Shown in pieces: positions 3,964-44,055 of a stretch of 64,000 bases of DNA (positions are counted from its first letter, which is position 1; each line of letters opens with the position of its first letter). A program made the translations under genes and the position numbers. Source of the DNA: an uncultured Bacteroidota bacterium (GTDB taxonomy: Bacteria; Bacteroidota; Bacteroidia; Bacteroidales; P3); the NCBI GenBank assembly GCA_902778925.1, contig CACYZN010000001.1, forward strand, positions 62,001 through 126,000, in the 5' to 3' direction. The notes under the pieces are model-generated. The model did no database searches. It worked only from the letters and a program-made list of their open reading frames with translations, and was not told the DNA's origin.

Positions 3964-4121
3964 CTTCCCCACCGCTTCCCCTCCGGTCGTTCTTATGTAC
4001 TTCTTATGTATTTCTTATGTTGTATTTATGTTTAAAACATAAGAAATACATAAGAAGTACATAAGAAATACATAAGAAATACCCTACCGGAGCAGGAGAG
4101 GAAGGCATGGTGGAAAGGTGG
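3964..4121. repeat. Palindromic 11-bp-unit element, copy 1
   Basis: Four units of the form TTCTTATGTAN (3990-4033) meet, head to head at 4033/4034, four reverse-complement units of the form ANTACATAAGA (4034-4077). Each unit is exactly 11 bp. The register continues into GC-rich flanks: CTTCCCCACCG and CTTCCCCTCCG at 3964-3985, and GGAG-type units after 4089. The arms can pair over about 50 bp with few mismatches. Near-identical copies lie at about 32824 and 43946, and a diverged one at about 62660. Confidence 0.9.
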
Positions 4122-4146
4122 AAAAAGCATGGGGAGAGAAAAAAAA

Positions 4147-4178
4147 TTTCGCCAGTTGAAAAATTGTTTGTACCTTTG
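4147..4178 (+). promoter_or_regulatory. Promoter of the PpiD/SurA-like gene
   Basis: TTTC at 4147-4150, a 20-base spacer and TACCTTTG at 4171-4178. It leaves a leader of about 90 bases before the ATG at 4279. It sits just downstream of the palindromic element. Confidence 0.6.
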
Positions 4179-4278
4179 CATCTTTGACGGCGAGTGCCGC
4201 GGGCACACGTGGTTGCATGCACCGCACTCGAAGTCAGCACAATAAACAGGTAATAATAACAATAAAAATACTAACAAA

Positions 4279-6387
4279 ATGGCAATTATTGGAAGCATTA
4301 GAAAACATTCTGGTTGGGCAGTAGCCATAGTGGGTATAGCCATCTTGGCCTTTATCCTTGGCGACCTGACGAAGAACCGTGGCGGCATACCCGACGTGGG
4401 CCGAGTCAACAACGCGACAATGACGTCGCAGCGGTTCAACGAGTTGGTAGCCGAGCGCGAGAACAACTACAAGATGCAGCAGCAGACCACCCAGGTGCCC
4501 GCCGACGTCGAGCAGCAACTGCGCGACAACGTGTGGCAACAGTTCGTCGAAGAGACCCTCATGGAGGAGCAGACCGCCAAGCTGGGCCTGCGCGTCACCC
4601 CGGCCGAGCTGAGCGACATGTACACCGGCATCTTCATACACCCCTATGTGCGCCAGCAGTTTACCGACCCGAAGACCGGCCAGTTCGACCTGCGCCAGGT
4701 GAACTATTGGATAGAGAACTTCGACCAGATCGACACCCTGCGCCGCATGCAGTGGGTCGAGCTGGAGAAAGCCGTGCGCACCGACCGCGAGGCCCAGAAG
4801 TACAACACCCTCATCAATAGCGGCTTCTACATGCCCAAGGCCATAGCCGAGAAGGTGGCCTCCTACGGTGCCCAGAGCGCCAACGTGCGTGCCGTGGCAA
4901 TGCCCTTCTCGAGCGTCGCCGACGACGAGGTGAGCCTGGCCGATGCCGACTTCACCAACTACTACAACGAGCACCGTGCCGACTTCAAGGTGCGCGAGGA
5001 GCTGCGCGACCTCGAGTTCATCACCTTCCCCGTCAACCCCACCCCCGAGGACCTGGCCAAGATACAGGAAGAGGTCAACAAGACCTGGCTCGAGTTCCAG
5101 GCAGTGCCCGATAGCGAGATGACCTTCTTCGTCAACGCCGAGAGCGACCGCAGCTACGACTCGTCGTACGTGCACGCCACCAGCTTCAAGGCCCCCCTCG
5201 ACGAGCAGATAGCCGCCGCCAAGGAAGGCGACATGCTGGCTCCCATGATGGTCGGCAGCGAATGGCAGATGGCCAAAGTGATGAAGACCGCCGTGCGCCC
5301 CGACTCGCTGCGCGCCTCGCTCATCTTCATCCTCAACAGCAACGCCGGTGGCGGCATCACCCGCAGCGACGACCAGGCCAAGGCTCTGGCCGACAGCCTG
5401 CTCGGTGTGCTCAAAGCCAACAAGCTCGGCTTCGAGCAAGCCGTGGCCCAGTACAGCGACGAGCAGACCAAAGCCGATACCAAGGGCGACCAGGGCTGGC
5501 AGCTCGACGGTGCCTACGGCTTCCTCAACGAGCAAATCGTCAACACCCCCGTGGGCGGCGTGTTCGTGGTGAAACAACCGCAGGGTATGGGCTACTTCGT
5601 GGTGAAAGTGACCGACAAGACCAAGGCCGACAAGAAGTACCGCGTGGCCCTCATCACCCGCGAAATCGTTCCCTCGGCAGCCACCAACCGCAACATCTAC
5701 AACACCGCCAACATGTTTGCCGGCCGCAACCGCACCATTGCCGAGTTCGAAGCCGCCGCACAGCAGGAGAACCTGCAGGTGCGCAGCGCCCGCACCAACA
5801 TGATGTCGAACACCCTCGCCGGCGTCAACAACGCCCGCAGCATAGTGCAGTGGGCCTACAACGAGGACACCAAGCTCGGCACCGTGGCCGACCAAGTATA
5901 CGAGTGCGACGGCATGTTCGTCGTCGTGGCCCTGAAAGACATCTTCAAGAAAGGCTATGCCACCCTCGACCAGGTGCGCCCGATGATTGAGCAGCCCGTG
6001 CGCCTCGAGAAGAAAGGCGAAAAGCTGATGGCCACCGCCGAGGAAGCCGTCAAGGTGGGCAAAGACATCGTCTCGATAGCCACCAAGCTGGGCGTCGCCA
6101 TCGACACCCTCGACAGCGTGGCCTTCACCGACTACTACTTCGGCCGCTACGGCATGGAGCCCAAAGTGCAGGCCGCCATCGCCGCCAACGCCAACGGACT
6201 GGTTGGCCCCATCAAGGGCGCCAGCGGCGTGTACATGGTGCAGATCGACAGCAAGGCACAGCGCGAAGTCAACAGCGAGGCCGTGAAGTCGCAGCTCGAG
6301 ATGGGCTACCGCAACAAAGCCCGCATGCTCAGCCAGGTGCTCCGCGACAACGCCAAGATTACCGACCAGCGCAACCGCTTCTTCTAA
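4279..6387 (+). CDS. Peptidylprolyl isomerase, SurA/PpiD-like periplasmic chaperone
   Basis: A 702-residue membrane-anchored folding factor. One N-terminal helix (about residues 13-29) follows a short cytoplasmic stretch, as in PpiD. A SurA-N-like region with FVEETLMEEQTAKLGL comes next (residues 90-115), and then parvulin-type PPIase segments, the clearest around residues 345-450 (ILNSNAGGGITRSDDQAK ... FEQAVAQYSDEQTKADTKGDQGW ... GMGYFVVKVTDKTKADKKY). It should help outer-membrane and secreted proteins fold in the periplasm. The C-terminus ends in a basic RNRFF tail. The gene has its own promoter at 4147-4178, and a strong hairpin follows at 6406-6455. Confidence 0.9.
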   Translation: MAIIGSIRKHSGWAVAIVGIAILAFILGDLTKNRGGIPDVGRVNNATMTSQRFNELVAERENNYKMQQQTTQVPADVEQQLRDNVWQQFVEETLMEEQTAKLGLRVTPAELSDMYTGIFIHPYVRQQFTDPKTGQFDLRQVNYWIENFDQIDTLRRMQWVELEKAVRTDREAQKYNTLINSGFYMPKAIAEKVASYGAQSANVRAVAMPFSSVADDEVSLADADFTNYYNEHRADFKVREELRDLEFITFPVNPTPEDLAKIQEEVNKTWLEFQAVPDSEMTFFVNAESDRSYDSSYVHATSFKAPLDEQIAAAKEGDMLAPMMVGSEWQMAKVMKTAVRPDSLRASLIFILNSNAGGGITRSDDQAKALADSLLGVLKANKLGFEQAVAQYSDEQTKADTKGDQGWQLDGAYGFLNEQIVNTPVGGVFVVKQPQGMGYFVVKVTDKTKADKKYRVALITREIVPSAATNRNIYNTANMFAGRNRTIAEFEAAAQQENLQVRSARTNMMSNTLAGVNNARSIVQWAYNEDTKLGTVADQVYECDGMFVVVALKDIFKKGYATLDQVRPMIEQPVRLEKKGEKLMATAEEAVKVGKDIVSIATKLGVAIDTLDSVAFTDYYFGRYGMEPKVQAAIAANANGLVGPIKGASGVYMVQIDSKAQREVNSEAVKSQLEMGYRNKARMLSQVLRDNAKITDQRNRFF

Positions 6388-6405
6388 ACAACCGCAGCAA
6401 TACAT

Positions 6406-6455
6406 CAGAGAGTCAAAGAGTATGCTCGCAAAGAACCATACTTTTTGACTCTTTG
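6406..6455 (+). terminator. Long stem-loop after the PpiD-like gene
   Basis: Arms 6406-6424 and 6437-6455 pair over 19 bases with two mismatches around a 12-base loop. No long T-run follows (only TTTGCTTATTAA), so it may be a weak terminator, an mRNA-stabilising 3' hairpin, or an attenuator between this gene and the M23 peptidase that starts at 6482. Confidence 0.55.
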
Positions 6456-6481
6456 CTTATTAAATAAAGCACCCGGGTACA

Positions 6482-7387
6482 ATGGCCATAAAGGACTGGT
6501 GGATAAAACTACGCAGCAAGCCCATTGGCGACATCATAAAGCATAAGCACCGCTTTGTGGTGATGGACACCGACACGTTCAAGGAGAAGCTCTCCTTCCA
6601 GCTGTCGGGCATCAACCTGTTTGTGACCGTAGGCATCACCATCATAGTGCTCATAGTGCTCACCACCGTGCTCATAGCCTTCACCCCCCTGCGCGAATAC
6701 ATACCCGGCTACACCGACAACGAGACCATAGAGCAGACCTACCACAACGCAAAGAAGATAGACTCGCTCGAGACAGTCCTCACCAACCAGGAATGGCTCA
6801 TCGCAACCCTGCAGGCGGTGATGCGCGGCGAGACCATCGATGCCACCTACGACAGCATCCTGACGGATAGCAGCAGCACCCTCGCCCACCTCGGCACAGC
6901 CTATCGCCGCTCGAAAGAGGACAGCCTGCTGCGCCTCGAAGTGGAAGCCGAAGACAACCGCTACGAGGTGAAGAACAGCACCGCCGCAACCCCGGCCGAC
7001 AACAACTTGTCGGCGGCCACACACCTCTTCTACCCACCCGTCAAAGGCAATATAATCAACTCCTACAACTCGGCCACGCACCATTACGGCGTCGACATAG
7101 CAGCCGCCACCGGGCAACCCGTGAGCGCCGCCTACAGTGGCACCGTGATACTGGCCGGCTTCGCCGCCGACGAAGGGCACGTCATAGCCCTGCAGCATCC
7201 GGCCGGCATCATAACCATATACCGAAACAACAGCGCCCTGCTGAAGAAACAAGGCGACATAGTGCGCGCCGGCGAGCCCATAGCCTACGTAGGTGCCGGC
7301 ACCAACCGCGACCTGGGGTCGCACCTGCACCTGGAAGTGTGGGTGAACGGCACCCCGGTCAATCCCCAAGACTATATATCCTTCTAA
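6482..7387 (+). CDS. M23-family peptidase, membrane-anchored
   Basis: 301 residues. A cytoplasmic N-terminus is followed by one transmembrane helix (about 44-67), a helical linker and a C-terminal LytM/M23 domain. The metal site is complete: HHYGVDIAA gives the first His and the Asp, and SHLHLEVWVNG gives the HxH. The protein probably cleaves peptidoglycan cross-bridges in the periplasm, or activates other hydrolases. The TAA stop shares its last base with the ATG of dxr, so the two are translationally coupled, and the run continues through rseP. Confidence 0.9.
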   Translation: MAIKDWWIKLRSKPIGDIIKHKHRFVVMDTDTFKEKLSFQLSGINLFVTVGITIIVLIVLTTVLIAFTPLREYIPGYTDNETIEQTYHNAKKIDSLETVLTNQEWLIATLQAVMRGETIDATYDSILTDSSSTLAHLGTAYRRSKEDSLLRLEVEAEDNRYEVKNSTAATPADNNLSAATHLFYPPVKGNIINSYNSATHHYGVDIAAATGQPVSAAYSGTVILAGFAADEGHVIALQHPAGIITIYRNNSALLKKQGDIVRAGEPIAYVGAGTNRDLGSHLHLEVWVNGTPVNPQDYISF

Positions 7388-8523
7388 TGAATACTCCCAA
7401 ACACATCGCCATACTCGGCTCCACCGGCTCCATAGGCACCCAGGCCTTGAACGTCGTGCGCCGGCACCGCGACCGCTATGCCATCGAGGTGCTCTGTGCC
7501 GGCAGCAATGCCGACCTGCTGATACAGCAGGCCCTCGAGTTCGAGCCCAACGCCGTGGTCATAGCCGACCAGAGCAAATACGCCACCGTGCACGAGGCAC
7601 TGTGCAATACCGACACCAAAGTATACGCCGGCGAAGAGTCGATGACTGACCTTATGGATATGGGCAGCATCGACATGGTTCTGGCAGCCATAGTAGGCTT
7701 TGCGGGGCTGAGGCCCACCCTGCGCGCCCTGGAGCGCGGCAAGGCTGTGGCACTGGCCAACAAGGAAACCATGGTGGTGGCCGGCGAGATAATGACCCGC
7801 ACCGCCACCCTCAACCGGACACCGATACTGCCCGTCGACAGCGAACACTCGGCCATATTCCAGTGCCTTGTCGGCGAGACCAGCCCACTCGACAAGATAC
7901 TGCTCACCGCCAGCGGCGGCCCCTTCCGTGGCAAAAACCGCAGCCAGCTGGCCGACGTAACGCTCGACCAGGCGCTGCATCACCCCAACTGGAGCATGGG
8001 CCGCAAGGTAACCATCGACTCGGCCACCCTGATGAACAAGGGGCTTGAGGTAATCGAGGCCAAATGGCTTTTCGGCGTCGAGGCCACCGACATCGAGGTA
8101 CTGGTACACCCGCAGTCGATAGTGCACTCCATGGTGCAATTCCACGACGGAAGCATCAAAGCCCAGCTCGGCATACCCACCATGGAGACGCCCATACAGT
8201 ATGCCTTCTCGTTCCCCGAGCGTATCGAGAGCCATCTGCCACGTCTCGACTTTGCCGACCACCCGACGCTGACATTCGAGAAGCCCGACACCTCCACATT
8301 CCGCTGTCTCGACCTGGCCTACCGCGCCATCGCCCAGGGCGGCAACATGCCCTGCATCATGAACGCCGCCAACGAGGTGGCAGTGCAGCAGTTCATCGAA
8401 GGCCGTATGCGTTTCCTCGACATCGCCGACTATATAGAGCGTGCCATGCAGACCGCCCACTTCATCGCCAAGCCCACGCTCGACGACCTGTTCCAAACCG
8501 ACAAAAGCATTCGTAATATATGA
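7387..8523 (+). CDS. dxr: 1-deoxy-D-xylulose 5-phosphate reductoisomerase
   Basis: Catalyses the NADPH-dependent rearrangement of DXP to MEP, the committed step of non-mevalonate isoprenoid synthesis. It has 378 residues from the ATG at 7387; an upstream in-frame codon lies inside the M23 gene and is rejected. The nucleotide-binding GSTGSIG is at residues 10-16. NKETMVVAG, the metal/substrate motif PVDSEHSAIFQ and HPNWSMGRKVTIDSATLMNKG are all intact. It overlaps rseP by four bases (ATGA). The dxr-rseP order is common in bacteria and ties isoprenoid supply to envelope genes. Confidence 0.98.
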   Translation: MNTPKHIAILGSTGSIGTQALNVVRRHRDRYAIEVLCAGSNADLLIQQALEFEPNAVVIADQSKYATVHEALCNTDTKVYAGEESMTDLMDMGSIDMVLAAIVGFAGLRPTLRALERGKAVALANKETMVVAGEIMTRTATLNRTPILPVDSEHSAIFQCLVGETSPLDKILLTASGGPFRGKNRSQLADVTLDQALHHPNWSMGRKVTIDSATLMNKGLEVIEAKWLFGVEATDIEVLVHPQSIVHSMVQFHDGSIKAQLGIPTMETPIQYAFSFPERIESHLPRLDFADHPTLTFEKPDTSTFRCLDLAYRAIAQGGNMPCIMNAANEVAVQQFIEGRMRFLDIADYIERAMQTAHFIAKPTLDDLFQTDKSIRNI

Positions 8524-9920
8524 ATTGGTTAGCCCTATTGCTCAGCCTCTCGCTGCTTGTAGCCACCCACGAGCTGGGACATCTGGCCTTTGCCAAGTTG
8601 TTCCACACCCGTGTGCGCCGCTACTACATCTTCTTCAACTGGAAGTTCTCCATACTGAAGGCCAAGAAGTTCGGCGGCAAGTGGCATTTTCTTTTCTTCA
8701 ACTCGACGACCCCCGACAGCTGGGACGAGAAGAACCTGGCCCCCGAAGACCAGGACAACACCCTGTGGGGACTCGGGTGGATACCTCTGGGCGGCTACTG
8801 CGACATAGCCGGCATGATAGACGAGACCAAGAGTGCCGACGACCTGGAATCTGAGCCGCAGCCGTGGGAGTACCGCACCAAACCCGCCTGGCAGCGCCTC
8901 TGCATCATCAGCGGCGGCGTGCTGGTCAACTTCCTCTCGGCCCTGCTCATCTATGGCATCATCTTCTCGCATTGGGGCAAAGACGAGCTGCCGATGCGCA
9001 GCGCCACCTTGGGCCTGCAATACAGTCAGGTGATGCTCGACGAAGGTTTCCAAAACGGCGACATCATTTATGCCCTCGACGGACAAGACTATGACGACAT
9101 AGTAGACATCAACAAGGTTCTGCTGCTCGAGTCACCCCGCACCGCCACCGTGTTGCGCGGCGACTCGCTGGTCGACCTTGAGCTCAGCGGCACCTTGGCC
9201 GACCGCGTCAGCGAGACCCGCACCAAGGAACTCATGACATACCGTATGCCCTTTGTGGTGAAAGGCTTTGTAGCCGGTTCGCACGCCGAAGCCGCCGGCA
9301 TGCAAGTGGGCGACAGCGTGGTGAGCGTCGACGGCGTGCCCATGGCAGCCATACAGGACATCACAGCCTCGCTCGCCGACCACCGCGACAGCGAAGTGTG
9401 CCTCGGCTACTTCCGTGGCAGCCGATACGACACGATACGCATTGCCGTCAACGACCGCGGCCAGATAGGGGTACAGCTAGAGAACAACATCGCACGCCTC
9501 TTCCCCGGCTACCGACACGTGGACTACAACATACTGCAAGCCATACCCGCCGGCATAAGCCACGGCTGGCAGACACTTGCCACCTATGTCTCGTCGCTCA
9601 AGCTGCTCTTCGCCCCCGGCGGGGCACAGAATCTGGGCGGCTTCGGCTCGATGGCGTCGCTCTTCCCTGAACATTGGAGTTGGCAAGCCTTCTGGGAACT
9701 CACCGCCCTGCTGGCGCTCATACTGGCCTTCATGAACATCATACCCATACCCGGACTCGACGGCGGACACATAATCTTCACCCTCTGGGAGATTATCACA
9801 CGCCGCCGGCCCTCCGACAAGTTCCTCAACGTGGCACAGAACATCGGCATGTGGCTGTTGCTGGCACTGATGATACTGGCCAACGGCAACGACATACTGC
9901 GCTGGATGGGATTGATGTAG
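8520..9920 (+). CDS. rseP: RIP metalloprotease RseP (site-2 protease)
   Basis: Intramembrane zinc protease that cuts anti-sigma factors or remnant signal peptides within the membrane. HELGH at residues 17-21 lies in the first transmembrane helix, and the third zinc ligand motif GLDGGH is near residue 413 in a late helix. A periplasmic PDZ-type region lies between them (around MPFVVKGFVAGSHAEAAGMQVGDSVVSVDG). At 466 residues it matches Bacteroidetes members. It overlaps dxr upstream; the LptF/G-family gene starts 31 bases downstream. Confidence 0.96.
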   Translation: MNWLALLLSLSLLVATHELGHLAFAKLFHTRVRRYYIFFNWKFSILKAKKFGGKWHFLFFNSTTPDSWDEKNLAPEDQDNTLWGLGWIPLGGYCDIAGMIDETKSADDLESEPQPWEYRTKPAWQRLCIISGGVLVNFLSALLIYGIIFSHWGKDELPMRSATLGLQYSQVMLDEGFQNGDIIYALDGQDYDDIVDINKVLLLESPRTATVLRGDSLVDLELSGTLADRVSETRTKELMTYRMPFVVKGFVAGSHAEAAGMQVGDSVVSVDGVPMAAIQDITASLADHRDSEVCLGYFRGSRYDTIRIAVNDRGQIGVQLENNIARLFPGYRHVDYNILQAIPAGISHGWQTLATYVSSLKLLFAPGGAQNLGGFGSMASLFPEHWSWQAFWELTALLALILAFMNIIPIPGLDGGHIIFTLWEIITRRRPSDKFLNVAQNIGMWLLLALMILANGNDILRWMGLM

Positions 9921-11310: not shown

Positions 11311-11320
11311 ACGAGCCACC

Positions 11321-11375
11321 CACTCCGACTCCGGTCCGTATCCGGTCCGTATCTGGTCCGTATCAAGTCCGACTC
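11321..11375 (+). repeat. GTCCG 11-bp tandem array, copy 1
   Basis: Five consecutive 11-bp units of the form NNGTCCGNNTC, the first slightly diverged: CACTCCGACTC, CGGTCCGTATC twice, TGGTCCGTATC and AAGTCCGACTC. It starts 10 bases after the LptF/G stop. The same array occurs in reverse orientation at 57263-57317, and a short version at 29042-29063. No long internal palindrome is present, unlike the TTCTTATG elements. Confidence 0.88.
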
Positions 11376-11558
11376 ACGACGGTGTTGCCACGTAGTCAAC
11401 ACGCCGGGTCCACAGTCCTAACAGGCCTCGCCTGTCGACACATAGGTTGCACGATGCATAGCTCCTCCGACTGGGAATATCACTTTGTGGAGAGATCATC
11501 TGTCGACGTAGACTCGAATTTTTTTTGACCTATCTGTATGTGTTTCGGAAATAATTTG

Positions 11559-13308: not shown

Positions 13309-14144
13309 TACTGATTGCCGACAGCGGTAGTACCAAGACCACGTGGATGGAGGTAGAGTCTGGTAACAAGGTCGTTACCGAAGGCCTCAACCCACACTTC
13401 ACCACCGAGGAGCAGTTCCTTGCCGCCTGCGCTACCGTACGTCAGCAATTCACAATTCACAATTCACAATTCACAATTCATTTTTACGGTGCCGGCTGCG
13501 GTCTTGCTGCCCAACGAAAGAAGGTGGCCGATTGGCTCACCAAAGCCTTCGGAACAAGCGATGTGCATGTCGAAACCGACATGCTCGCCGCCTGCTGTGC
13601 CACCGCTGGCGAACGACCTGCTTTGGTGGCCATCCTCGGCACAGGGAGCAATGCCTGCTATTATGACGGCCAACAGATAGCCTATCAAGCGCCCAGCACG
13701 GGATACATCCTGGGCGACGAGGGGTCGGCCAACCACGTAGGTCGACGCCTGCTGCAGGACTATTTGACTGGATGTATGCCGAGGAGTATATCTTCCAAAT
13801 TCCATGATGCATACCCAATGACAAGGGAGGTGTTTCTGGATGCTGTCTACCACCAACCCAATGCCAACCGTTTTCTGGCGTCGCTGGCAAAGTTTGCAGT
13901 AGAGCATATTAACGACGGCTATTGCTCGTCAGAAATACTTTTCTGTCTCGAAGAGTGGTATAACTACCAGCTGGATAGTCTTATCAAGATTACTCATTGC
14001 ACGGGTCTGTACCTTGTTGGAGGGTTCGCGGCGCACATTAGGCCCCTAATAGAACAGGTAGCCGAGAACCATGGACTTGAAATCAAAGGGGTGGCGGCCG
14101 ACCCTATAGAAGGCCTCCACCAATACCATATTAAGAAGTTTTAA
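13305..14144 (+). CDS. BadF/BadG-type ATPase, N-acetylglucosamine kinase-like, with a 7-bp repeat in its coding sequence
   Basis: 279 residues with the actin-like ATPase fold: phosphate-1 loop [12 protein letters not shown] at the N-terminus, the conserved FYGAGC, phosphate-2 [17 protein letters not shown], and [16 protein letters not shown]. This matches the GlcNAc-kinase-like branch of BadF/BadG/BcrA. Just before FYGAGC the protein carries [13 protein letters not shown], encoded by five perfect copies of CAATTCA (13446-13480). Because the unit is 7 bp, a gain or loss of one or two copies would shift the frame. The present copy number keeps the frame open. It overlaps pyrD by four bases, but any metabolic link is unclear. 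Confidence 0.85.
13446..13480 (+). repeat. Heptanucleotide tandem repeat (CAATTCA x5) inside a coding sequence
   Basis: Five uninterrupted copies of a 7-bp unit (35 bp), about 47 codons into the BadF-type kinase gene and directly before its conserved FYGAGC motif. Seven is not a multiple of three, so slippage would switch the frame. Confidence 0.95.
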
Positions 14145-16964: not shown

Positions 16965-17218
16965 CGTACCCTATAGGAACCCTATACCATCTCTATACCA
17001 AGTCTATGGATACAAAGGGGTACCTAGGAGGTTCCTTCGGTGTTCCAAGGGGTATCCTTCGCCCTACCCAAGGAGCAGACTCGCTCCTCCCAAGGAGTTC
17101 CATCGGTGTTGCCATGCCCTTCCCATACCCCTCCCTCGCTCAAAAGGGGTGTTTGAGCGAGGCAGGAGCGAAGCACCTCCGAGGCACAGTATGGCAACTC
17201 CTTGCCAGCAGCGAGGCA
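16965..17218. repeat. Long array of degenerate 11-bp units, folding back on itself
   Basis: Four units ending in CTATA/CTATG (16965-17008) come first, then units of the type TTCCTTCGGTG, TTCCAAGGGGT, ATCCTTCGCCC, TACCCAAGGAG, CTCCCAAGGAG and TTCCATCGGTG. The 11-bp step holds without a slip from 17021 to 17141. After a turn at 17145-17151, the units run in the opposite sense (TTGAGCGAGGC, AGGAGCGAAGC, ACCTCCGAGGC and so on) to 17218. The centre is a perfect 11-bp hairpin, 17134-17144 with 17152-17162. No protein is credible here: the 131-codon open frame through it begins inside the metG terminator. Confidence 0.85.
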
Positions 17219-25086: not shown

Positions 25087-26124
25087 ATGAAGACTTCGAA
25101 AGTAATAACCCTCACAATGGTAGCCTTGGCACTGTGCGCCTCGCCGGCCCTGGCACAACGTGGCGGAAGCCGAGGCGGTGGCGGAAGCCACAGTGGCGGT
25201 GGCCACAGCAGTTCGATGAGTAGCAGTCGCGGCAGCTCAAGCAGCATGGGTAGCAGTCGCAGCAGCTCAAGCAGCAGCCGCAGCTCAAGCAGCTTCAGTA
25301 GCAGCCGTAGCTCAAGCAGCACCCGCAGCAGTGCAAGCAACGTGGGCAGCAGCCGCAGCGCAAGCCGCAGCACTGCCACCTACGGTAGCCACAACAGTGG
25401 CCGAAGCGTCGGCAGTAGCGTTGGCGAACGCGGCGCAGGCAGCAGCTCGCGCAACGATGGTGTGCGTGGCAGCTCGTCGTTCCGCAACGCTCGCCAAGCC
25501 GGTGTGACGTCGGGCCACTCGGGAGCTCGCGGTGGTTCCGTGGCCGCTCGCACAGGTCACCATTCCGGAGCCCGCAGCAGTGCCCCCAGCGCTTCGCCCC
25601 GCACCAGCCCCGGCATGGGTCACGACCGCGGCTATGCCCGCCCCGGCCGCCCCGGTGGCTACGTGCCCCCCGCAGCACGTCCCATCCACCCTGCCCCCTA
25701 TTTCCACCACCCCTGGCACGGCTACGTGGTACATTGCCACCCCATCTTCTGGGATCCCATACCTCCCCGCCCCTGGTACTGGCCCGGCTTCTGGCACTAT
25801 TGCCACAGCTACTGGTATGACTACCATGTGACCGATGTGGTTGTGGTGCACGACTACGTGCAGAAGACCTACAACGTGGACATGATTACCTACGGCATCA
25901 GCGGCGACATCATGTACGCCATCGTCCGCGACGGCGGCAGCACCTACCTGCAGGTCTACGACAACAACGACCGCCTGCTGGCCGAGCAGAAAATCAACAA
26001 GAGATACTGCAACATGGTAATCGACGCCGAGAACGGAGGCTGCTGGATCTCGAAGAAAAACAACAAAGACCCCCTTCTCTTCATCTGGGCCGACGGCCAA
26101 CTGCTGATATACGAAGAAGACTAA
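25087..26124 (+). CDS. Secreted Ser/Gly/His-rich low-complexity protein
   Basis: 345 residues with a clear signal peptide (MKTSKVITLTMVALALCASPALA). Residues 25-190 are low complexity: RGG, then SSS-R repeats, then Gly/Arg/Ser/His. A Pro/His/Trp/Tyr-rich stretch follows (HPAPYFHHPWHGY, PPRPWYWPGFWHYCHSYW). The last 90 residues look like an ordered domain ending in CWISKKNNKDPLLFIWADGQL. Function unknown; it is probably an exported protein, and the His-rich part could bind metal. A strong terminator follows. It returns to the GC content of the core genome. Confidence 0.75.
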   Translation: MKTSKVITLTMVALALCASPALAQRGGSRGGGGSHSGGGHSSSMSSSRGSSSSMGSSRSSSSSSRSSSSFSSSRSSSSTRSSASNVGSSRSASRSTATYGSHNSGRSVGSSVGERGAGSSSRNDGVRGSSSFRNARQAGVTSGHSGARGGSVAARTGHHSGARSSAPSASPRTSPGMGHDRGYARPGRPGGYVPPAARPIHPAPYFHHPWHGYVVHCHPIFWDPIPPRPWYWPGFWHYCHSYWYDYHVTDVVVVHDYVQKTYNVDMITYGISGDIMYAIVRDGGSTYLQVYDNNDRLLAEQKINKRYCNMVIDAENGGCWISKKNNKDPLLFIWADGQLLIYEED

Positions 26125-32823: not shown

Positions 32824-32964
32824 TCCGGTAGGGTATTTCTTATGTACTTCTTATGTATTTCTTATGTTGTATTTATGTTTAAAACATAAGAAATACATAA
32901 GAAATACATAAGAAGTACATTAAGAAATACCGGAGGGGAGCCGGAGAGGAGCCGGAGAGGAACT
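32824..32964. repeat. Palindromic 11-bp-unit element, copy 2
   Basis: Four TTCTTATGTAN-type units at 32837-32880 meet four ANTACATAAGA-type units at 32881-32925, the last with one inserted base. On the right the 11-bp step goes on as GGAGGGGAGCC, GGAGAGGAGCC, GGAGAGGAACT (32932-32964). The outer ends pair as CCGGTA and TACCGG. It lies between divergent genes. Confidence 0.9.
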
Positions 32965-33081
32965 GATTGTCAAGGTGGTGGCGGAAGGGGCCTGTGGCGG
33001 GGGTGCAGGTTTTTTTTCGCGAGAGGGCTGTGTTTGGGAAAAAAGTGTTATCTTTGCAATCGAAACTATCGACCGTTTGCT

Positions 33082-38669: not shown

Positions 38670-39793
38670 AACCTGCCAATACTCTTCATCAGACTTGACC
38701 ACAAGAGGTTGGCGGTTCTCTCCCAACTGTATTTCTCGCGCTGCCTACGGCCAACATCTATCAAACGTTCTCTTACCGCTTGCTCACGGATAGCTCTGAT
38801 AGCATGCACAATGTCATCTACAGAAGCGGGGTTTATGTAGATTGCGGCATCGCCTGCCACCTCAGGCATCGATGTGGTGTTCGAAGAAATAACCGCTGTT
38901 TCAGCATACATAGCCTCAAGTATTGGTATACCGAAACCCTCGAAATAAGAGGGGTATACCAACGCCTCGGCGCCCGAAAGCAATGCCGAGAGGTCGGCCG
39001 GCTCCACATGCCCTGGCATAATCACATCAGCTTTATGCTGCATCGAGTTATACGCCTCGGCCAGTTCATCCTGCCACCACACCCGACTGCCTACTACAAG
39101 CAGCTTCAGGTCATCTGGCTCCATGCTTTTTACCCTATCGAATGCAAGCAGCAGGTTGGTCAAATTTTTGCGCTTAATAATAGTGCTTATGAATATGAGG
39201 TAGCGGCAACCGCCAGTGTAGCGGCGACGAATGGCGTCTTTCTCGTTCTCTGTGTGCGGTCTGTAGTTCTCGTTGGCGCCGTCGTACACCACATCCACCT
39301 TGTCCTCGGGTATATGATATATGTCGCAAATATCATGCTTTGAGTACTCTGACACCGTCGCCACCCGAGTTGAACAACGTGCATATTGCGGATAAAACTT
39401 AGTAAAAAACCGCTGGTGCATCGGTTTCAGATTGTCGGGCGAGTGCTCAAAATTGATGTCATGTATCACCGACACTGTCGGCACCTTGGTACGGAGCGGT
39501 ATCATGCCGTCGGGCGACAGGAATATGTCAATATTATAGCGGCGCAGAGCCAATGGCACCGACCACTCGAAAAACAGATACCACAAAATAGGCAACCTTG
39601 CCTGGGGCTGGAGCACAACCGGCACAACATTGGGTGCGAAGATAAACTCGGGTGCCGGCTTCCTATCGAAGAAGAAGTAGAAGGTGTGTTCCGGATGAGC
39701 AAGGACCATACGACGTGCAGTCTCGGCGGTGAACCAGCCGATACCGTCCATCTTGCCTTTCAGCAACAATCGCGTATTTATGGCGATACGCAT
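38666..39793 (-). CDS. Family 4 glycosyltransferase (GT-B)
   Basis: 375 residues. It has the two-domain GT-B form: an N-terminal domain with INTRLLLKGKMDGIGWFTAE, and a C-terminal nucleotide-sugar site with FISTIIKRKNLTNLLLAF, VVGSRVWW, and the EX7E-type motif YPSYFEGFGIPILEAM. It probably adds a sugar in cell-surface glycan synthesis; donor and acceptor are not evident. It is cotranscribed with the OmpA-type gene downstream and starts 2 bases after the purN stop. Confidence 0.93.
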   Translation of the reverse strand: MRIAINTRLLLKGKMDGIGWFTAETARRMVLAHPEHTFYFFFDRKPAPEFIFAPNVVPVVLQPQARLPILWYLFFEWSVPLALRRYNIDIFLSPDGMIPLRTKVPTVSVIHDINFEHSPDNLKPMHQRFFTKFYPQYARCSTRVATVSEYSKHDICDIYHIPEDKVDVVYDGANENYRPHTENEKDAIRRRYTGGCRYLIFISTIIKRKNLTNLLLAFDRVKSMEPDDLKLLVVGSRVWWQDELAEAYNSMQHKADVIMPGHVEPADLSALLSGAEALVYPSYFEGFGIPILEAMYAETAVISSNTTSMPEVAGDAAIYINPASVDDIVHAIRAIREQAVRERLIDVGRRQREKYSWERTANLLWSSLMKSIGRL

Positions 39794-39795
39794 GG

Positions 39796-40377
39796 CTACC
39801 TTGCATGTATCGTTTCGTCAATCACTCTCGGGAAGTGCTCCTTCTCCAGCAGATGAATCTTCGCTGCGAGGTCGTCGGCCGTATCGCCTGGTTCCACAGT
39901 GCAACGCGCTTGGAACAAAGTGGTTCCGCGATCGTAATGCTGGTCAACAATATGGATTGTTATACCACTCTCCTTCTCGTGGTTGGCCACCACCGCCTCG
40001 TGCACATGGTGTCCGTACATGCCCTTGCCCCCGTAGGCCGGCAGCAAAGCAGGGTGTATGTTGATGATGCGGTTGGGGTAGGCGGCCAGCATCTCGGGCG
40101 GCACAAGCCACAGGAAGCCAGCCAGTATCACCCAGTCCACCTGTTTCTCGGCAAGGTAGCGCATCACAGCACCATTCTCGTAGAAATCCTTGCGGCCGAA
40201 ATAGCGAGCCTCGATACCAAGGTTTCGAGCCCGCTCGGCGATATAGGCATCGCGTTTGTTATAGATGATGCAAGCCACCTCTACATCGCTGCTATTTGCA
40301 AAGTATTCACTGATTTGCTGTGCGTTGGTGCCATTGCCCGACCCCAGTATGGCCAGCTTGATAGTGTTGTTTTTCAT
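39796..40377 (-). CDS. purN: Phosphoribosylglycinamide formyltransferase
   Basis: Third step of purine synthesis, transferring formyl from 10-formyltetrahydrofolate to GAR. It has 193 residues from MKNNTIKLAILGSGNGTNAQQ. Motifs: ILGSGNGTN, GFLWLVPPEML, the catalytic RIINIHPALLPAYGGKGMYG, and HIVDQHYDRGTTLFQ with the conserved Asp. Upstream open sequence past 40377 lies outside the promoter and is not coding. It heads a three-gene unit with the glycosyltransferase and an OmpA-type gene. Confidence 0.96.
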   Translation of the reverse strand: MKNNTIKLAILGSGNGTNAQQISEYFANSSDVEVACIIYNKRDAYIAERARNLGIEARYFGRKDFYENGAVMRYLAEKQVDWVILAGFLWLVPPEMLAAYPNRIINIHPALLPAYGGKGMYGHHVHEAVVANHEKESGITIHIVDQHYDRGTTLFQARCTVEPGDTADDLAAKIHLLEKEHFPRVIDETIHAR

Positions 40378-40404
40378 GCCACTTTTGTTGATTGTTTGAG
40401 ACTG

Positions 40405-40436
40405 CAAAGATACACACATTTTGGCACCTGAGCAAA
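40405..40436 (-). promoter_or_regulatory. Promoter of purN
   Basis: On the - strand, TTTG at 40436-40433, a 20-base spacer and TATCTTTG at 40412-40405, 28 bases before the purN ATG. It overlaps the coding end of the next gene upstream at 40445 only in its approach region. Confidence 0.7.
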
Positions 40437-40444
40437 CTAAATGT

Positions 40445-42304
40445 TCAGAATTTCCACCTGAGCTGCAGGTGCCACATCTGGCGCACCGGACCCTCGGTCT
40501 GTGCATCGCCGGTGCCAATAGCCTCTTGGTCTGGCATATATAATAACGAATAGCGCGCCGCCACACCGATGTTTTCTGCAAACGCATAGCGCACCACGGC
40601 ATGTGCCCGATAGCCGCGCCCGTTGAGCACAGGCATCGTCCAAGCATACTGCAATGTACTTTCGCTATGGTAGATACGAGCATAATAGCCATCGACGTCG
40701 AACCATACTCCTCCTAGGTCGAACCTGAGTCTTTCGGCCTGGTAGCGCAGCATGGCCGAGGCTGCCCACCCGTGCTGTGCCACGCCGTGCTCGCTTTCAA
40801 AATCGGCATACACAACACGCGCCGACAGTTGCCACGGCCCTGCCGTGTAGCGCACGTCGCCCTGCACCTGTTGCCGCAGGGTGGTCTCGCCCACATACTG
40901 TGTGCTGTCGCTATAAGGTAGGTTCCTCTCTTTCTGTCGGTAGGCGTAACGCACCGACGTAAGCACATAGTGCCCGCACTGCCGGCTCAGCTGTGCCCTG
41001 AGCCACGCCCCCGACGAGGGGCTGTAGCTGCCGTAGCGCAACGCCGGGAAAGAATGCAGGTCGACGCTGAGCAGCCCACTCACCTTGAACGGTAGCTGAA
41101 TTACAGCATTGAGCGCCAGGCCCTGCTCGGCCTGAGTCGATCCGATAGCGTAGGCCTGCGCATGCAGGTTGCGATACGCTGTATCGAAGTGGCGGTAGCT
41201 GATTCCAAGTCTGTTATCGGCCGAAGCCACCACATCGGCTCCGGCCACCACAGCTGCGTGCCCCTGCCCGTCAACGGCCGTCTCACCATGGAGCACCACT
41301 CGTCGCCACTGGTAGGCAGCATGGACACCGGCGTTGAACAAGCGGTCGCCACGGAAGCTGTGCACGTTGTACACATAGTTGTTGGGCACAACGCTGTCGT
41401 CGAGCGATGTATAGGTCGCCGTGAGGCCGGCCACGAGGTTGCCACGGCGCAGCTCGGCATTGCCGCCCACAAGACTCTCGCCCTCTACACGCGATGCGAA
41501 GCCCGAAAGGTGCACCCCGCTGCCCACATTGACGGTAGCAGCCACACCTTCCTGATAATCATACTCATAGAATGTACCGGCGGCTTTCACACCGGCTCCG
41601 TAGCGTGCAGTCGACATGCCGAGGATGGAGAAGGGACGCAGACCCGTCCAGAGCGTGAGACCCTGTCCAAACTGCAGGTTGTAGCGCCCCACAACCAGCT
41701 TCTCCAATGCCCCTATGTTGCTTAGAACAAGACGATAAGAATAGTAGTTACCCTTACCCCATGGCTCGGCGGCATCCTTGTCGGCCGCCAGGTGCAGACT
41801 CAGCTGGTTGCGGTACCTGTAGTTGTAGCACAGCAACGCCCGCATATTGTCGCCCTCGTAGCGGCCGTTGGCATAGCCTGCGGCCTGCTCTACAGTACCG
41901 CCTATGCCGGCCACAAGCGAATGGCGCCCCTGCCAGGGCCGGAACTGGCCGCGAGGCTCGACGGGCTGCGCAATGAGGTAGGGGGCAATTTGCTCGACTA
42001 CAGCGCTGTCGAAGCCTGGTACCAGCAGCAGCTCCTTCACCGACAGCAGTTGTCCGTAGAGGGCTATGTAGTAGCACAACGCCTTGCGCTGGAAGGGGTC
42101 GAGCAGAGGGAAATCGGCCAGCGCTGCGGTATCGTTGATGTTGAACGGCGAGTCGCGCCACTGGGCGAGCTGGTCGTTCATCTCGGCCGCAGCCGCTTCG
42201 TCGCCGTCGTCGACAAGCCACTGTTCGATGGCCTCGTCGACCACCTGTGCCCGCAGCATGGTGGGCATCGACAGCAGCAGTAGCAATATGACCAAACGCC
42301 TCAT
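40445..42304 (-). CDS. Outer-membrane beta-barrel protein with N-terminal helix-hairpin-helix region
   Basis: 619 residues from the ATG at 42304, chosen because it overlaps the preceding stop (ATGA). Signal peptide MRRLVILLLLLSMPTMLRAQ. Residues 45-115 (NINDTAALADFPLLDPFQRKALCYYIALYGQLLSVKELLLVPGFD) match the ComEA-like helix-hairpin-helix repeats found before barrels in Bacteroidetes. The rest alternates aromatic/small residues as outer-membrane strands and ends MWHLQLRWKF, with the C-terminal Phe typical of barrels. The role is unknown; the helical part may bind DNA or a partner in the periplasm. It is the last of three coupled genes. Confidence 0.8.
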   Translation of the reverse strand: MRRLVILLLLLSMPTMLRAQVVDEAIEQWLVDDGDEAAAAEMNDQLAQWRDSPFNINDTAALADFPLLDPFQRKALCYYIALYGQLLSVKELLLVPGFDSAVVEQIAPYLIAQPVEPRGQFRPWQGRHSLVAGIGGTVEQAAGYANGRYEGDNMRALLCYNYRYRNQLSLHLAADKDAAEPWGKGNYYSYRLVLSNIGALEKLVVGRYNLQFGQGLTLWTGLRPFSILGMSTARYGAGVKAAGTFYEYDYQEGVAATVNVGSGVHLSGFASRVEGESLVGGNAELRRGNLVAGLTATYTSLDDSVVPNNYVYNVHSFRGDRLFNAGVHAAYQWRRVVLHGETAVDGQGHAAVVAGADVVASADNRLGISYRHFDTAYRNLHAQAYAIGSTQAEQGLALNAVIQLPFKVSGLLSVDLHSFPALRYGSYSPSSGAWLRAQLSRQCGHYVLTSVRYAYRQKERNLPYSDSTQYVGETTLRQQVQGDVRYTAGPWQLSARVVYADFESEHGVAQHGWAASAMLRYQAERLRFDLGGVWFDVDGYYARIYHSESTLQYAWTMPVLNGRGYRAHAVVRYAFAENIGVAARYSLLYMPDQEAIGTGDAQTEGPVRQMWHLQLRWKF

Positions 42305-43053
42305 AGCCATAGCATCAGCGATGTTTGAGGTGTGATGCCCAGCCAGCGGTGGGTCTCGACGGCGAGGTCGAGTTGCATGCGGCCGACGCGGAAACCCGCA
42401 CCGAAGGTGAGCGCCAGCGGCGCCGTAGAGAAGCCGGCCCGCAGGGCCAGGCTGTTGTGGTAGAGATACTGCATGCCGGCCCGCAGACGCAGACGCTCTT
42501 CGCTCTCGGCTTCGATCAGGGTGGTCCAAGACGCTATAGGGCGGAAGGCCAGCTGCGCATGGGCTCGCCAAGGGCGACGCTCGTCCCATGGGCGCGAACC
42601 CGCCAACAACATGATACCAAGCGAGCTATGTGGCTCAAACCGCACCATGGCGTCGGCTCCGAGGAAGGAGAGCGGCTCGTAGTGAGGGTCGGCTGTGCCG
42701 AGGTGCAGCCAGCGCGCCGCCACGCCCACATGCACGCCGCGGCCCACACGCATGGCATAGGCCATAGCAAGCTGCTGCTCATGGTAGTCGAGGTTACCGT
42801 GGTGGCGGTAGGCGGCGGCCACAGTGCCCGACGACAGCGGCAGCAGCAGGTCGATGTCCTTGTCGGCCATGGCTTCGGCCAGGAAGGCGTGCCTGTAGCC
42901 TATAGCCACATGTGGTTCCGACAGCACAAGGCAACCGCCCATAGCGCCACTGCGGGCACTATGGGCGGTGTGTGCAAACTGCGCTGCGACACTGCCCGCA
43001 AGGGCCACTGCCACAAGCAGTGCAAAGAGGCGTTTACTCAGCCTGCTCGTCAA
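42301..43053 (-). CDS. Small outer-membrane beta-barrel-like protein
   Basis: 250 residues from a TTG start at 43053, 20 bases inside the upstream gene. Signal peptide MTSRLSKRLFALLVAVALAGSVAA. The mature part begins AHTAHSARSGAMGGCLVLSEPHVAIGY, like the opening of PorV/PorQ-type barrels, then shows repeated amphipathic strands up to WLGITPQTSLMLWL. I infer an outer-membrane barrel. Assignment to the PorQ group is tentative. The TTG start and overlaps suggest tight coupling to the lipoprotein before it. Confidence 0.65.
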   Translation of the reverse strand: MTSRLSKRLFALLVAVALAGSVAAQFAHTAHSARSGAMGGCLVLSEPHVAIGYRHAFLAEAMADKDIDLLLPLSSGTVAAAYRHHGNLDYHEQQLAMAYAMRVGRGVHVGVAARWLHLGTADPHYEPLSFLGADAMVRFEPHSSLGIMLLAGSRPWDERRPWRAHAQLAFRPIASWTTLIEAESEERLRLRAGMQYLYHNSLALRAGFSTAPLALTFGAGFRVGRMQLDLAVETHRWLGITPQTSLMLWL

Positions 43054-43765
43054 GTTGGTCGATTATGGCCTGGATGTCGGCACGACGGCTCGAAATCTCG
43101 CCATTGAGAATGATGTGGGGGAAGCGGGCCTCGATGTCGATGGTGTCGACCTCCTCGATGGACATAGCCTCGATGTCGGCCTCGGTGATGTAGGCGGCCT
43201 TCACGTTGTTGAAGCTACCCTTCACCAGCGAGCCCATGTTGGCAAAGCGGGTGATGGCGATGGTACCGGCATAGCCGATGTACAGAGCATGCTCCGAAGC
43301 GGCCAGCACAACGATGTTGCCCAGGTCGGGCTGGTTCTCGGTGAGGAGGCTACGCCAGTTGGTGCTGTCGATGGTCTTGAAGAAGCTGACCTGGTCGACA
43401 GGGCAGTTCACCTCGTAGGTCGTCTCGGCAGTGTCGCGCAGGTTAAGGCCAACCATAGGATAGGTGATGTTGGCGTTCTCGCCCTGGAGCAGGTTGGCCT
43501 CGGTGCCGACGAAGAGCGAACCGTAGTCGACAGCGATAGAATTCTCGACAGTAACATTGATGTTGCACATGGCCGAGGCAAAGTTCAGAGTGTCACCTTC
43601 GCCATAGGGCTGATCGCCGTTCTGGGGGTTCGAGGTAACAAGAGTGATGTGACCCAGCAGGTCGTTGCCACCGTTAATGTTGCCGAAAGGGTTCTCGCCA
43701 TCGCAGGCAGCTAAGCCAAACATGGCGGCCACGGCTGTGGCAATAGCAAAGATACTTTTTTTCAT
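43034..43765 (-). CDS. Lipoprotein of unknown function
   Basis: 243 residues with a lipoprotein signal (MKKSIFAIATAVAAMFGLAAC). The mature part is acidic and rich in strands (GDTLNFASAMCNINVTVEN, VVLAASEHALYIGYAG), ending in a helical acidic tail (ADIQAIIDQLDEQAE). I recognise no domain. It is first in a three-gene unit with two outer-membrane barrel candidates, which suggests one envelope complex. Confidence 0.7.
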   Translation of the reverse strand: MKKSIFAIATAVAAMFGLAACDGENPFGNINGGNDLLGHITLVTSNPQNGDQPYGEGDTLNFASAMCNINVTVENSIAVDYGSLFVGTEANLLQGENANITYPMVGLNLRDTAETTYEVNCPVDQVSFFKTIDSTNWRSLLTENQPDLGNIVVLAASEHALYIGYAGTIAITRFANMGSLVKGSFNNVKAAYITEADIEAMSIEEVDTIDIEARFPHIILNGEISSRRADIQAIIDQLDEQAE

Positions 43766-43835
43766 GTTCTTAATGCTTTTAATATGGTTTGATTTTCAGT
43801 TATTTACTTGTCTATGTAGCCTACATAGTACAATG

Positions 43836-43866
43836 CAAAGTTAGCACATTTTTTCGATACACCAAG
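43836..43866 (-). promoter_or_regulatory. Promoter of the lipoprotein/barrel unit
   Basis: On the - strand, CTTG at 43866-43863, a 19-base spacer and TAACTTTG at 43843-43836, 70 bases before the ATG. Confidence 0.55.
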
Positions 43867-43945
43867 AAAAAAGTTACATTTTTAACTGAATTTCACTATT
43901 TTCGCATCGCCAGCCACTCGCATCCCCCTACCGTCCCCCTCCGCT

Positions 43946-44055
43946 TCCGGTAGTGTCGTTCTTATGTACTTCTTATGTATTTCTTATGTTGTATTTATGT
44001 TTAAAACATAAGAAATACATAAGAAATACATAAGAAGTACATAAGAACTACCGGG
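43946..44055. repeat. Palindromic 11-bp-unit element, copy 3
   Basis: Four TTCTTATGTAN-type units (43959-44002) meet four ANTACATAAGA-type units (44003-44046), with paired outer ends CCGGTAG and CTACCGG. GC-rich flanks also step by about 11 bp. The unit order is the same as in copy 2. Confidence 0.9.

Follow-up and report, generated by a model that had tools for sequence, protein, structure and literature searches.

Dispersed intergenic palindromes with an 11-bp step and species-specific letters in an uncultured Bacteroidales bacterium and its relatives

Repeats found between bacterial genes are usually families defined by their sequence; in the elements described here an 11-bp step and a palindromic plan, seen in at least four species, outlast the exchange of letters. 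The very small mobile repeats and heptamer repeats of Nostoc are short, dispersed between genes and linked with tandem repeats, and the present elements differ from them in unit length and in their palindromic module plan. In Xanthomonas, arrays of the heptamer GGGAATC, mostly of four units, are found at 186 loci in one species and 183 in another, some 90% of them between genes; they form facing inverted pairs in 70 and 75 cases, lie between divergent ORFs in 7–8%, and are discussed as G-quadruplexes in a paper that also mentions the Nostoc heptamer repeats (PMC4692102). The BrickBuilt MITE of Porphyromonas gingivalis, present in 19 copies, consists of a leader and a tail around tandem modules of 23-nt direct repeats, with IS5-like terminal inverted repeats in some copies (PMC4596501). 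REPs are elements of 20–40 bp that carry GTAG or CGTC tags (PMC3733652).

Like the Xanthomonas arrays, the present elements are facing intergenic arrays of a short fixed unit. However, the unit is 11 bp rather than a G-rich 7 bp, and gaps between divergent genes, the rarer location in Xanthomonas, are favoured here; a tail, mirrored variants and a species-by-species change of unit are not among the features described in the part of that account considered here (PMC4692102). With BrickBuilt they share a host in the Bacteroidales, an intergenic location, tandem modules in a small element, a tail and a limited host range (PMC4596501), but their modules are palindromic and 11 bp long, and in this genome neither a DDE_Tnp_1 gene nor a terminal inverted repeat was recognised. 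Intergenic high-copy palindromes with family-specific sequence and a one-sided terminal motif also recall REPs, REPINs and BIMEs (PMC3733652). An earlier sequence-only reading had set the elements apart from REP/BIME, and as far as tested this holds: they are dispersed and high-copy, the 11-bp module is not a feature of REPs as described there, the arms are at least 40 bp long in this genome and two relatives (G012 and G009), as against 20–40 bp, and the draft contains no Y1/RAYT gene.

We analysed a window of 64,000 nucleotides of contig CACYZN010000001.1 from this genome (G000), and direct reading located in it the three palindromes reported by the sequence-only reading (Table 1). TRF reports a period of 11 for copies 1, 2 and 3. 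Three TTCTTATGTNN units and an altered fourth, TATTTATGTTT, make up the left arm, four or five ACATAAGAANN units form the right arm, and an extra base in copy 2 (ACATTAAGAA, near 32919) makes one unit 12 bp long. The register extends into the GC-rich flanks, as had been proposed. Judged from conservation, the full element is about 180 bp long and runs from C-rich 11-bp modules through AT-rich modules, a palindromic centre TTTAAAA and mirrored AT-rich modules to G-rich modules; some copies carry an outward one-sided tail, CTGRTTNTCAGGCNGTTA. A fourth palindrome, with approximate limits, had been overlooked. It is the sole match to its search pattern in 617 kb of this genome's DNA and combines outer modules of the local type (CTATGTATTTC / ACATAAGAAGT) with inner modules from another family (GACGATACTTC, AACTATAGTTC); module sets may thus have been swapped inside a single element, here and at locus L160 of G012.

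Table 1. Repeat features of the 64,000-nucleotide window (window positions; core positions also as genome coordinates)
Feature	Position	Strand	Remarks
Palindrome copy 1	3990..4082	+	25-bp core 4023-4047 = G000:C1:66023-66047; direct reading, TRF
Copy 1, C-rich modules on left (CTTCCCCACCG, CTTCCCCTCCG)	3964..3989	+	
Copy 1, GC-rich modules on right	4083..4101	+	no match to tail pattern
Palindrome copy 2	32837..32929	+	core 32870-32894 = G000:C1:94870-94894; one 12-bp unit; TRF
Copy 2, GC-rich 11-bp modules on right, CCGGAGAGGAG type	32930..32961	+	TRF, direct reading
Copy 2, tail CTGATTGTCAAGGTGGTG	32963..32980	+	tail pattern match
Palindrome copy 3	43959..44051	+	core 43992-44016 = G000:C1:105992-106016; TRF, RNA fold
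Copy 3, GC-rich modules on left	43937..43958	+	
Fourth palindrome, same 11-bp register as copies 1-3	62655..62760	+	pattern search
Direct 11-bp array TCCGGTCCGTA	11319..11378	.	TRF; palindrome not above shuffles
Short 11-bp array, CTATACCATCT type	16966..17001	.	
Direct 11-bp array, ATACGGACCAG type	57266..57321	.	TRF

A scan of lags 4–30 over the whole window gave six strong runs at lag 11 and none at lags 10 and 12. In the intergenic DNA of the window 15 hits fell at lag 11, compared with 0.0 in ten dinucleotide shuffles, an excess on which the sequence-only reading had made its claim depend; scan and shuffles together rule out chance periodicity. The intergenic excess over shuffles recurs in eight of nine sampled sister genomes, in one of them weakly, and intergenic 11-bp periodicity was 0 in an order-level sample. 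The genus is also rich in other 11-bp arrays and in separate 7-bp arrays.

The three palindromes are far from the total, and a restriction to three copies, which the sequence-only reading had named as refuting its claim, was rejected. The genome contains 114 core copies (100 places are listed, every one exact), scattered over contigs. The class is recurrent and intergenic as first described, and the original observation is confirmed and larger than reported. Identity is 93–100% along most of the 101-bp query among the 40 candidates scored. The copies are non-coding, dispersed and in many cases near-identical, as in MITEs, and we infer copying to new sites because many near-identical copies have unrelated outer flanks. 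In 617 kb, most of it selected for the copies that it surrounds, all 49 matches of an outer-right model are no more than 200 bp from a core; a core-less outer module set is absent from the sampled DNA, and the idea that elements grow when new cores insert into older outer modules was rejected. The core has 0 copies among 119 other genomes of the genus, and two exact core patterns have 0 matches in virus sequences. BLAST with copy 1 outside the species gave two weak hits, one in G020 (inside its own 11-bp array, E 9e-4) and one in G031 (E 4e-4). Of 38 shortened arms in loci fetched by place, 36 lie on the high-coordinate side, regardless of element strand, as do four of five further ones in search loci; these one-sided short arms are likely assembly artefacts rather than biology. 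Core uniformity could partly be assembler consensus, all sequences being drafts.

We consider it about an even chance that these elements are a non-autonomous, dispersed, intergenic palindromic repeat family of the genus, amplified anew in each species. New copies would have landed between genes, mostly in upstream gaps where the neighbours diverge. Against such a mobile family counts that neither clean ends nor target duplications were noticed, similarity fading outward. Homology fades to the left, and the tail is on one side. Several results given below also count against it: the scarcity of palindromes above shuffles in seven of ten relatives, the missing arm mirroring in this genome, loose tail patterns without a clear excess, tails that lie apart from arrays, and the absence of a transposase gene among the families searched. 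Local replication slippage with hairpin mutagenesis alone, acting at independent sites without dispersal, would suit the plentiful 11-bp and 7-bp arrays of the genus, but evolution site by site cannot produce more than 100 near-identical elements, each about 100 bp long, and we regard this as the most improbable of the explanations considered.

Three sisters, G002, G009 and G012, have clear palindromes that keep the register but use other letters; in the other seven of ten relatives the arrays are mostly direct, and palindromes rise above shuffles in few of them. G012 contains 45 copies of a near-perfect palindrome of about 110 bp that has 0 copies in 119 other genomes, and in both G012 and the present genome the letters are near-uniform within the genome and different between the two. 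Each would have amplified a private version. The pitch of 11 bp recurs, as do a related tail and, clearly in four species, the layout as a palindrome, and a single ancestor of all the families may lie behind them. As to shared sites, 31 copies of this genome have an orthologous neighbour among 42 G012 loci, and both flanks correspond in four pairs; two of these share the gap, one sits by the same end of a gene and has its other flank displaced, and one is unshared. Fixed orthologous sites were rejected. One gap is filled in G009 too. In the gap before a SurA/PpiD-like gene the lag-11 score is at least 16 in four of 29 readable loci (this genome, G012, G019 and G017), the cut locus L176 being left out; G019 carries a third module set there, and the G017 signal is A-rich DNA by the start. 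A bolder proposal, which we advance tentatively, is that this is a new class of bacterial chromosomal element, set by pitch and layout and not by sequence: a palindrome of interchangeable 11-bp modules with a one-sided tail, in which whole module sets would be exchanged from one species to the next, and even within an element, without loss of register. Such elements might either copy themselves via a hairpin intermediate, with an enzyme outside Y1, DDE_Tnp_1 and RVT_1, or serve as spaced sites, phased with the helix or sensing supercoils, that lie between divergent promoters and are read by a chromosome protein in fast co-evolution. They offer a natural experiment on two questions: by what route satellite-like repeats come about in bacteria, become uniform and spread, and why a fixed pitch near one helical turn would be kept.

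Variants are mirrored between the two arms in two species. In G012, 106 of 117 cells are concordant at three of nine variable stem positions (73.4 expected), and 283 of 351 at all nine, against a mean of 256.3 and a maximum of 278 in 2000 permutations; mirroring is absent at positions 4 and 45–50. In G009, concordance is 64 of 96 against 38.5 at four positions spaced 11 bp apart. Arm covariation is absent in the present genome (joint 3: 15 matches, 18.1 expected). Compensatory changes of this kind, a helical repeat of about 11 bp per turn in A-form RNA, and the very stable RNA fold of copy 3 (z = -15.8; 0 of 200 shuffles equally stable) would suit copies transcribed as long hairpins that terminate transcription or serve as RNase III substrates. 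The sequence could form the hairpin that the sequence-only reading had thought might be transcribed. However, the stem is followed by GC-rich modules and not by a T-run, unlike an intrinsic terminator, and copies are rare in convergent gaps (3/73 copy-bearing against 11/70 copy-free; 0.024). In Rfam, the copies in the window match no family at gathering score, the window's single such hit being a tRNA, and three loci gave nothing at gathering score, with microRNA hairpins sub-threshold. A structured RNA or terminator is accordingly improbable in our judgement. The covariation largely involves G/C states, with some T/A and few G-U intermediates, and for that reason fits DNA-level copying between arms no less well than it fits selection acting on an RNA stem. 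In a dispersed repeat family, template switching through the hairpin, together with slippage as the DNA replicates, would probably re-match arms and neighbouring modules and so hold variants mirrored and the pitch fixed. With the mirrored variants, hairpin template switching can be tested directly against selection for pairing.

Close to arrays a tail, CTNANNATCAGNCNGTTA, is found repeatedly, on one side. A de novo motif from 124 flanks of ten relatives, this genome left out, reached a log-likelihood of 132 against 58.0 and 64.6 in two shuffles, with 150 starts for the real flanks and 60 for the shuffles. With one mismatch allowed, the tail pattern has 112 matches in 52 of 120 genomes of the genus (38 of them from four genomes) against 16 for the reversed control. 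Among 30 such loci, one per genome, an 11-bp array lies inward in six (a seventh inward hit, an N-run, is left out) and outward in three, compared with two of 901 random windows; tail and array are apart in 21 of the 30. Strict or loose patterns gave no clear excess near arrays, nor did loose ones in the window, and the loose pattern occurs at 48 per Mb in the order-level sample and 56 per Mb in this genome. Of 26 tail sites in G009, 24 have 11-bp modules on the inward side and none has them on the outward side; those 24 have a common layout that runs from the left arm through the tail without a gap.

The high copy number, the intergenic palindromes and a terminal motif on one side would fit REP/REPIN-type elements moved by a RAYT (Y1) transposase that was lost or left unassembled here, and Y1 occurs in 39 of 59 genomes of the genus. 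Yet none was found in the drafts of this genome (114 copies) or G009 (at least 24 copies), which are 93–95% complete, the arms exceed REP size and the modules are not REP-like; we therefore rate a RAYT origin as unlikely. Of the three families searched, Y1 (PF01797), DDE_Tnp_1 (PF01609) and RVT_1 (PF00078), this draft (93% complete) has no gene, and neither an IS4/IS5-type parent nor a reverse transcriptase was found in it. The linked transposase or DNA-binding protein for which the sequence-only reading had proposed a search was likewise not identified.

By codon-based gene calls copies 2 and 3 lie between divergent genes and copy 1 between two plus-strand genes, in agreement with the earlier remark on two of the three, and this remark grew into a real trend across 73 gaps. 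With trimmed starts, divergent gaps make up 43 of the 73 that carry a copy and 16 of the 70 that carry none (Fisher 1.7e-5); the figures are 36/54 and 13/43 after subtraction of 180 bp with 200 bp required (5e-4), and 17/30 and 4/17 where both neighbours are supported by homology (0.036). Element strand follows that of co-directional genes in 20 cases against 7. Neighbouring copies are at least 3.2 kb apart, with none of 68 intervals below 3 kb and a CV of 0.61; simulation gave 11.7–13.2 intervals below 3.2 kb and a CV of 0.90–0.93, from a null built on 15–21 gaps of one window with one tandem pair omitted.

The divergent-gap bias and the strand preference could indicate function rather than a mobile family. 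A protein might read the modules, perhaps from one face of the DNA as the sequence-only reading suggested, or the hairpin absorb supercoils, between divergent promoters. The sites would be retained at intervals because they serve regulation, packaging or repair, and would diverge by co-evolution with the protein. The even spacing and the near-invariant letters once every 11 bp in G009 also speak for such sites. However, B-DNA has about 10.5 bp per turn, so that an 11-bp step drifts around the helix; near-identity across about 100 bp is more than a binding site needs; the core is missing from the 119 sisters; the spacing null is as narrow as stated; and insertion preference, or purifying loss elsewhere, also predicts the upstream-gap bias. 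Functional sites upstream of genes are thus possible, and we give them limited credence. The bias makes a role in promoters, or a target near them, testable.

Longest-ORF picks showed no orientation preference (38 ++, 25 -+, 23 -- and 16 +- of 102 copies; background 48, 38, 29 and 22 of 137), and this count was set aside because picks of this kind assign wrong strands around copies 1 and 3 of the window; codon-scored calls with trimmed starts match direct reading at all three window copies. A gene travelling with the copies was also rejected, as a 26-member longest-ORF cluster did not recur and the largest codon-scored neighbour cluster has 12 members. The three members examined carry fn3, or PKD and Por secretion-tail domains, and are surface or secreted proteins.

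The three palindromes that the sequence-only reading had described in this window are confirmed, with a TRF period of 11, and the fixed 11-bp step is real: lag 11 gives six strong runs in the window and lags 10 and 12 give none, and the intergenic DNA contains 15 lag-11 matches against 0.0 in ten dinucleotide shuffles. A fourth palindrome keeps the 11-bp register and has outer modules (11-bp units) of the source genome's own type, with different inner modules. The repeat features of the window are listed in the table.

Repeat features of the window, in window coordinates
Feature	Position	Repeat unit (bp)
Palindrome, copy 1	3990-4082	11
Palindrome, copy 2	32837-32929	11
Palindrome, copy 3	43959-44051	11
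Fourth palindrome	~62655-62760	11
Direct array	11319-11378	11
Direct array	16966-17001	11
Direct array	57266-57321	11
Tandem array	13446-13480	7
Overlapping repeats within an ORF	25216-25369	15-48

The elements are not restricted to these three copies. The 25-bp centre of the palindrome (core), allowing up to three mismatches, has 114 matches (53 + 61) in the source assembly (2.23 Mb, 54 contigs, 93% complete) and none in the reversed control. The core is exact in all 100 places among the matches listed, and the 103 distinct copies gathered comprise 101 exact cores, one with one mismatch and one with three, the last being the tandem partner of another copy. In one fetched stretch (L034), two tandem cores lie 56 bp apart, near the 11-bp register, and this pair is a partial tandem duplication. 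Conservation is near-complete between -11 and +45 relative to the core and declines gradually beyond these limits in both directions. Many copies are terminated by a right-side tail, GGAGCTGGTTNTCAGGCGGTTA, and 38 of 101 copies carry a CTG-type tail at exactly +92. A model of the outer right part gave 49 matches in 617 kb of the source genome, a sample picked around copies except for the window; all 49 lie within 200 bp of a core, and reversed DNA gave none.

Copying is needed to explain so many near-identical units whose outer flanks are unrelated, and the family is therefore best read as a non-autonomous dispersed palindromic repeat. Searches for mobility genes covered the Y1 transposase, DDE_Tnp_1 and RVT_1 families. 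Y1 transposases, present in 39 of 59 genomes of the genus, gave no match in the 93%-complete source draft or in the relative G009; DDE_Tnp_1 gave none in these two or in the relative G012, and RVT_1 none in the source draft or G009 and a single match in G012. No linked transposase, which the sequence-only reading had proposed to look for, was identified in these searches or among the neighbours examined: the largest cluster of genes beside copies has 12 members, three of which were inspected and proved to be fn3 or PKD/Por-tail proteins.

One feature of the copies is likely to be an assembly or gap-filling artefact rather than biology. In 36 of 38 short-arm copies from loci fetched by place, the shortened half-palindrome is the one at the higher contig coordinates, regardless of element strand (two-sided binomial, 5e-9), and five more from search loci divide 4 versus 1; we draw this conclusion because contig orientation should be arbitrary. 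The uniformity of the core may have the same cause and be partly assembler consensus. The palindrome architecture itself recurs in several assemblies. Such one-sided shortening of arms could mislead studies of repeats in MAGs.

Placement between genes was compared over gaps no shorter than 120 bp, drawn from the window and 53 further stretches (L039-L091), 54 in all and mostly picked around copies, with codon-scored gene calls and trimmed starts, consistent with manual reading at all three window copies. The 73 copy-bearing gaps comprise 43 divergent, 16 ++, 11 -- and three convergent, and the 70 copy-free gaps 16, 19, 24 and 11, respectively, so that copies show an excess of divergent gaps (odds ratio 4.8, p = 1.7e-5) and a deficit of convergent ones (p = 0.024). 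The divergent share is 17/30 versus 4/17 in copy-free gaps (p = 0.036) when both neighbours have a homologue in the fetched relatives, and 36/54 versus 13/43 (p = 5e-4) when 180 bp are subtracted from copy gaps and at least 200 bp required. A longest-ORF count showing no orientation preference was rejected, because picks of this kind assign wrong strands at two of the three copies in the window. Element strand and gene strand agree in 20 co-directional gaps and disagree in seven; a single copy (in L047) falls inside a predicted gene. Transcription leaves negative supercoils in divergent gaps, and these could favour hairpin extrusion, insertion or function there.

Copies are also widely spaced. 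Across 68 intervals from the 100 places among the matches listed, which exclude the tandem pair 56 bp apart, the minimum neighbour distance is 3.2 kb and the mean 13.4 kb, with a CV of 0.61. Simulation on the gap spacing of the window, a null built on 15-21 gaps and crude gene calls, predicts 11.7-13.2 intervals shorter than 3.2 kb and a CV of 0.90-0.93; the observed CV was matched in at most one of 2000 runs. This spacing may reflect immunity, recombination loss or function.

The core was found in none of 119 other genomes of the genus, nor in genome-contig and viral-contig collections, from which the records nearest the source genome may be missing. Period 11 persists in sisters lacking the core: intergenic lag 11 exceeds the shuffles (at most 0.2) in eight of nine sisters sampled at 72-140 kb (G012, 16; G009, 12; G002, 8; G001, G003, G004 and G014, 5 each; G016, 2; G021, 0). 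In 13 order-level genomes (250 kb, of which 20 kb intergenic) the lag-11 count was zero. With arrays counted as palindromic when their palindrome score is above that of every one of 20 shuffles, palindromic arrays number 4/7 in the window, 4/5 in G002, 11/13 in G012 and 5/7 in G009; they form a minority or half in G001 (3/9), G004 (2/9), G003 (2/7) and G021 (1/2), and none scored above shuffles in G014 (0/4), G016 (0/4) or G020 (0/2).

G012 has a family of its own, at 45 places and in none of 119 other genomes: a near-perfect palindrome of 11-bp modules, about 54 bp per arm, with the centre TTTAAAA. In the 39 full-length copies of 42, the stem has nine variable positions, and variants match between arms at positions 26 (35/39, expected 19.6), 37 (38/39, 34.3) and 41 (33/39, 19.5); position 4 (24 versus 26.8 expected) and positions 45-50 show no excess. 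Concordance over all nine is 283/351, compared with a mean of 256.3 and a maximum of 278 in 2000 permutations. In G009, the tail pattern has 26 matches versus one in the reversed control, and the lag-11 score, the measure of 11-bp periodicity, is at least 16 of 22 within 150 bp inward at 24/26 and outward at 0/26. Its 24 elements that align without gaps (L279 and L284 dropped) run from left modules through a palindromic centre and five right modules, NNNNNGGA(G/C)(T/A)TG, to a tail lying some 59 bp away from the axis. Four variable positions 11 bp apart pair in 17, 16, 19 and 12 of 24 (expected 9.0, 9.5, 11.5 and 8.5); most of the remaining positions read do not vary or lie close to expectation, with 15 versus 11.9 and 17 versus 14.0 as the largest excesses and one deficit (3 versus 5.2). 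Five G009 elements (L269, L271, L272, L281 and L282) share an A/T-rich stretch beyond the tail, followed some 42 bp farther out by what looks, on visual inspection, like a second tail-like motif.

Published work (PMC8794818) describes hairpin template switching as a process that both generates perfect stems and preserves them. It would mirror changes between arms, and the mirrored variants, among which G-U intermediates are few, fit this process. Arm mirroring was not seen in the source genome (48 complete of 103 copies), and this is not predicted by the template-switching model alone.

Modules are also exchanged in register. Two module families are combined in a single register both in the fourth palindrome of the window and in one G012 element (L160), which lies in the gap before a SurA/PpiD-like gene. 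In the gap before this gene, the lag-11 score is 16 or higher in four of 29 readable loci: the source genome, G012, G019, which has a third module set, and G017, where the signal is A-rich DNA by the start codon.

An unsupervised search of 124 outward array flanks from ten relatives, the source genome excluded, returned the tail motif CTGANAATCAGNCNGTTR (log-likelihood 132 versus 58.0 and 64.6 in two shuffles, which had fewer starts). A fixed tail pattern with one mismatch has 112 matches in 52 of 120 genomes of the genus (reversed control, 16), with one in the source genome and none in G012. Among 30 tail loci, one per genome, an array lies inward at six, outward at three and at neither side at 21 (a seventh inward array is an N-run and was not counted), compared with 2/901 random windows. 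Looser patterns showed no clear excess near arrays and are equally common in the order-level sample and the source genome. Tail and array are associated, yet separable, and the tail may not be confined to the genus.

In the part of the literature matches surveyed, judged by titles and abstract openings, no palindromes of 11-bp modules were found described. The nearest known systems among those surveyed are the Xanthomonas heptamer arrays (PMC4692102) and BrickBuilt of P. gingivalis (PMC4596501); REP families were compared through parts of PMC3733652, and the text searched of PMC13155455 contains no word starting with Bacteroid. That pitch and layout define an element class is a tentative idea, and rather an unlikely one.

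A second intergenic period of the genus is 7 bp. Tandem arrays of CAATTCA, CTCTCCA and TTTCACC occur in the window and in the flanks of many copies, and TTGAAAA in relatives; lag 7 is likewise raised in several sisters. In two relatives (L153 and L156), AGTGGGT-type units seem palindromic downstream of the SurA/PpiD-like gene. G002 (L093, L110 and L117-L121) has strong periods of 7, 9, 14, 18, 26 and 27 besides 11. The overlapping repeats within an ORF of the window are AGC- and TCA-rich and probably encode a serine-rich stretch.
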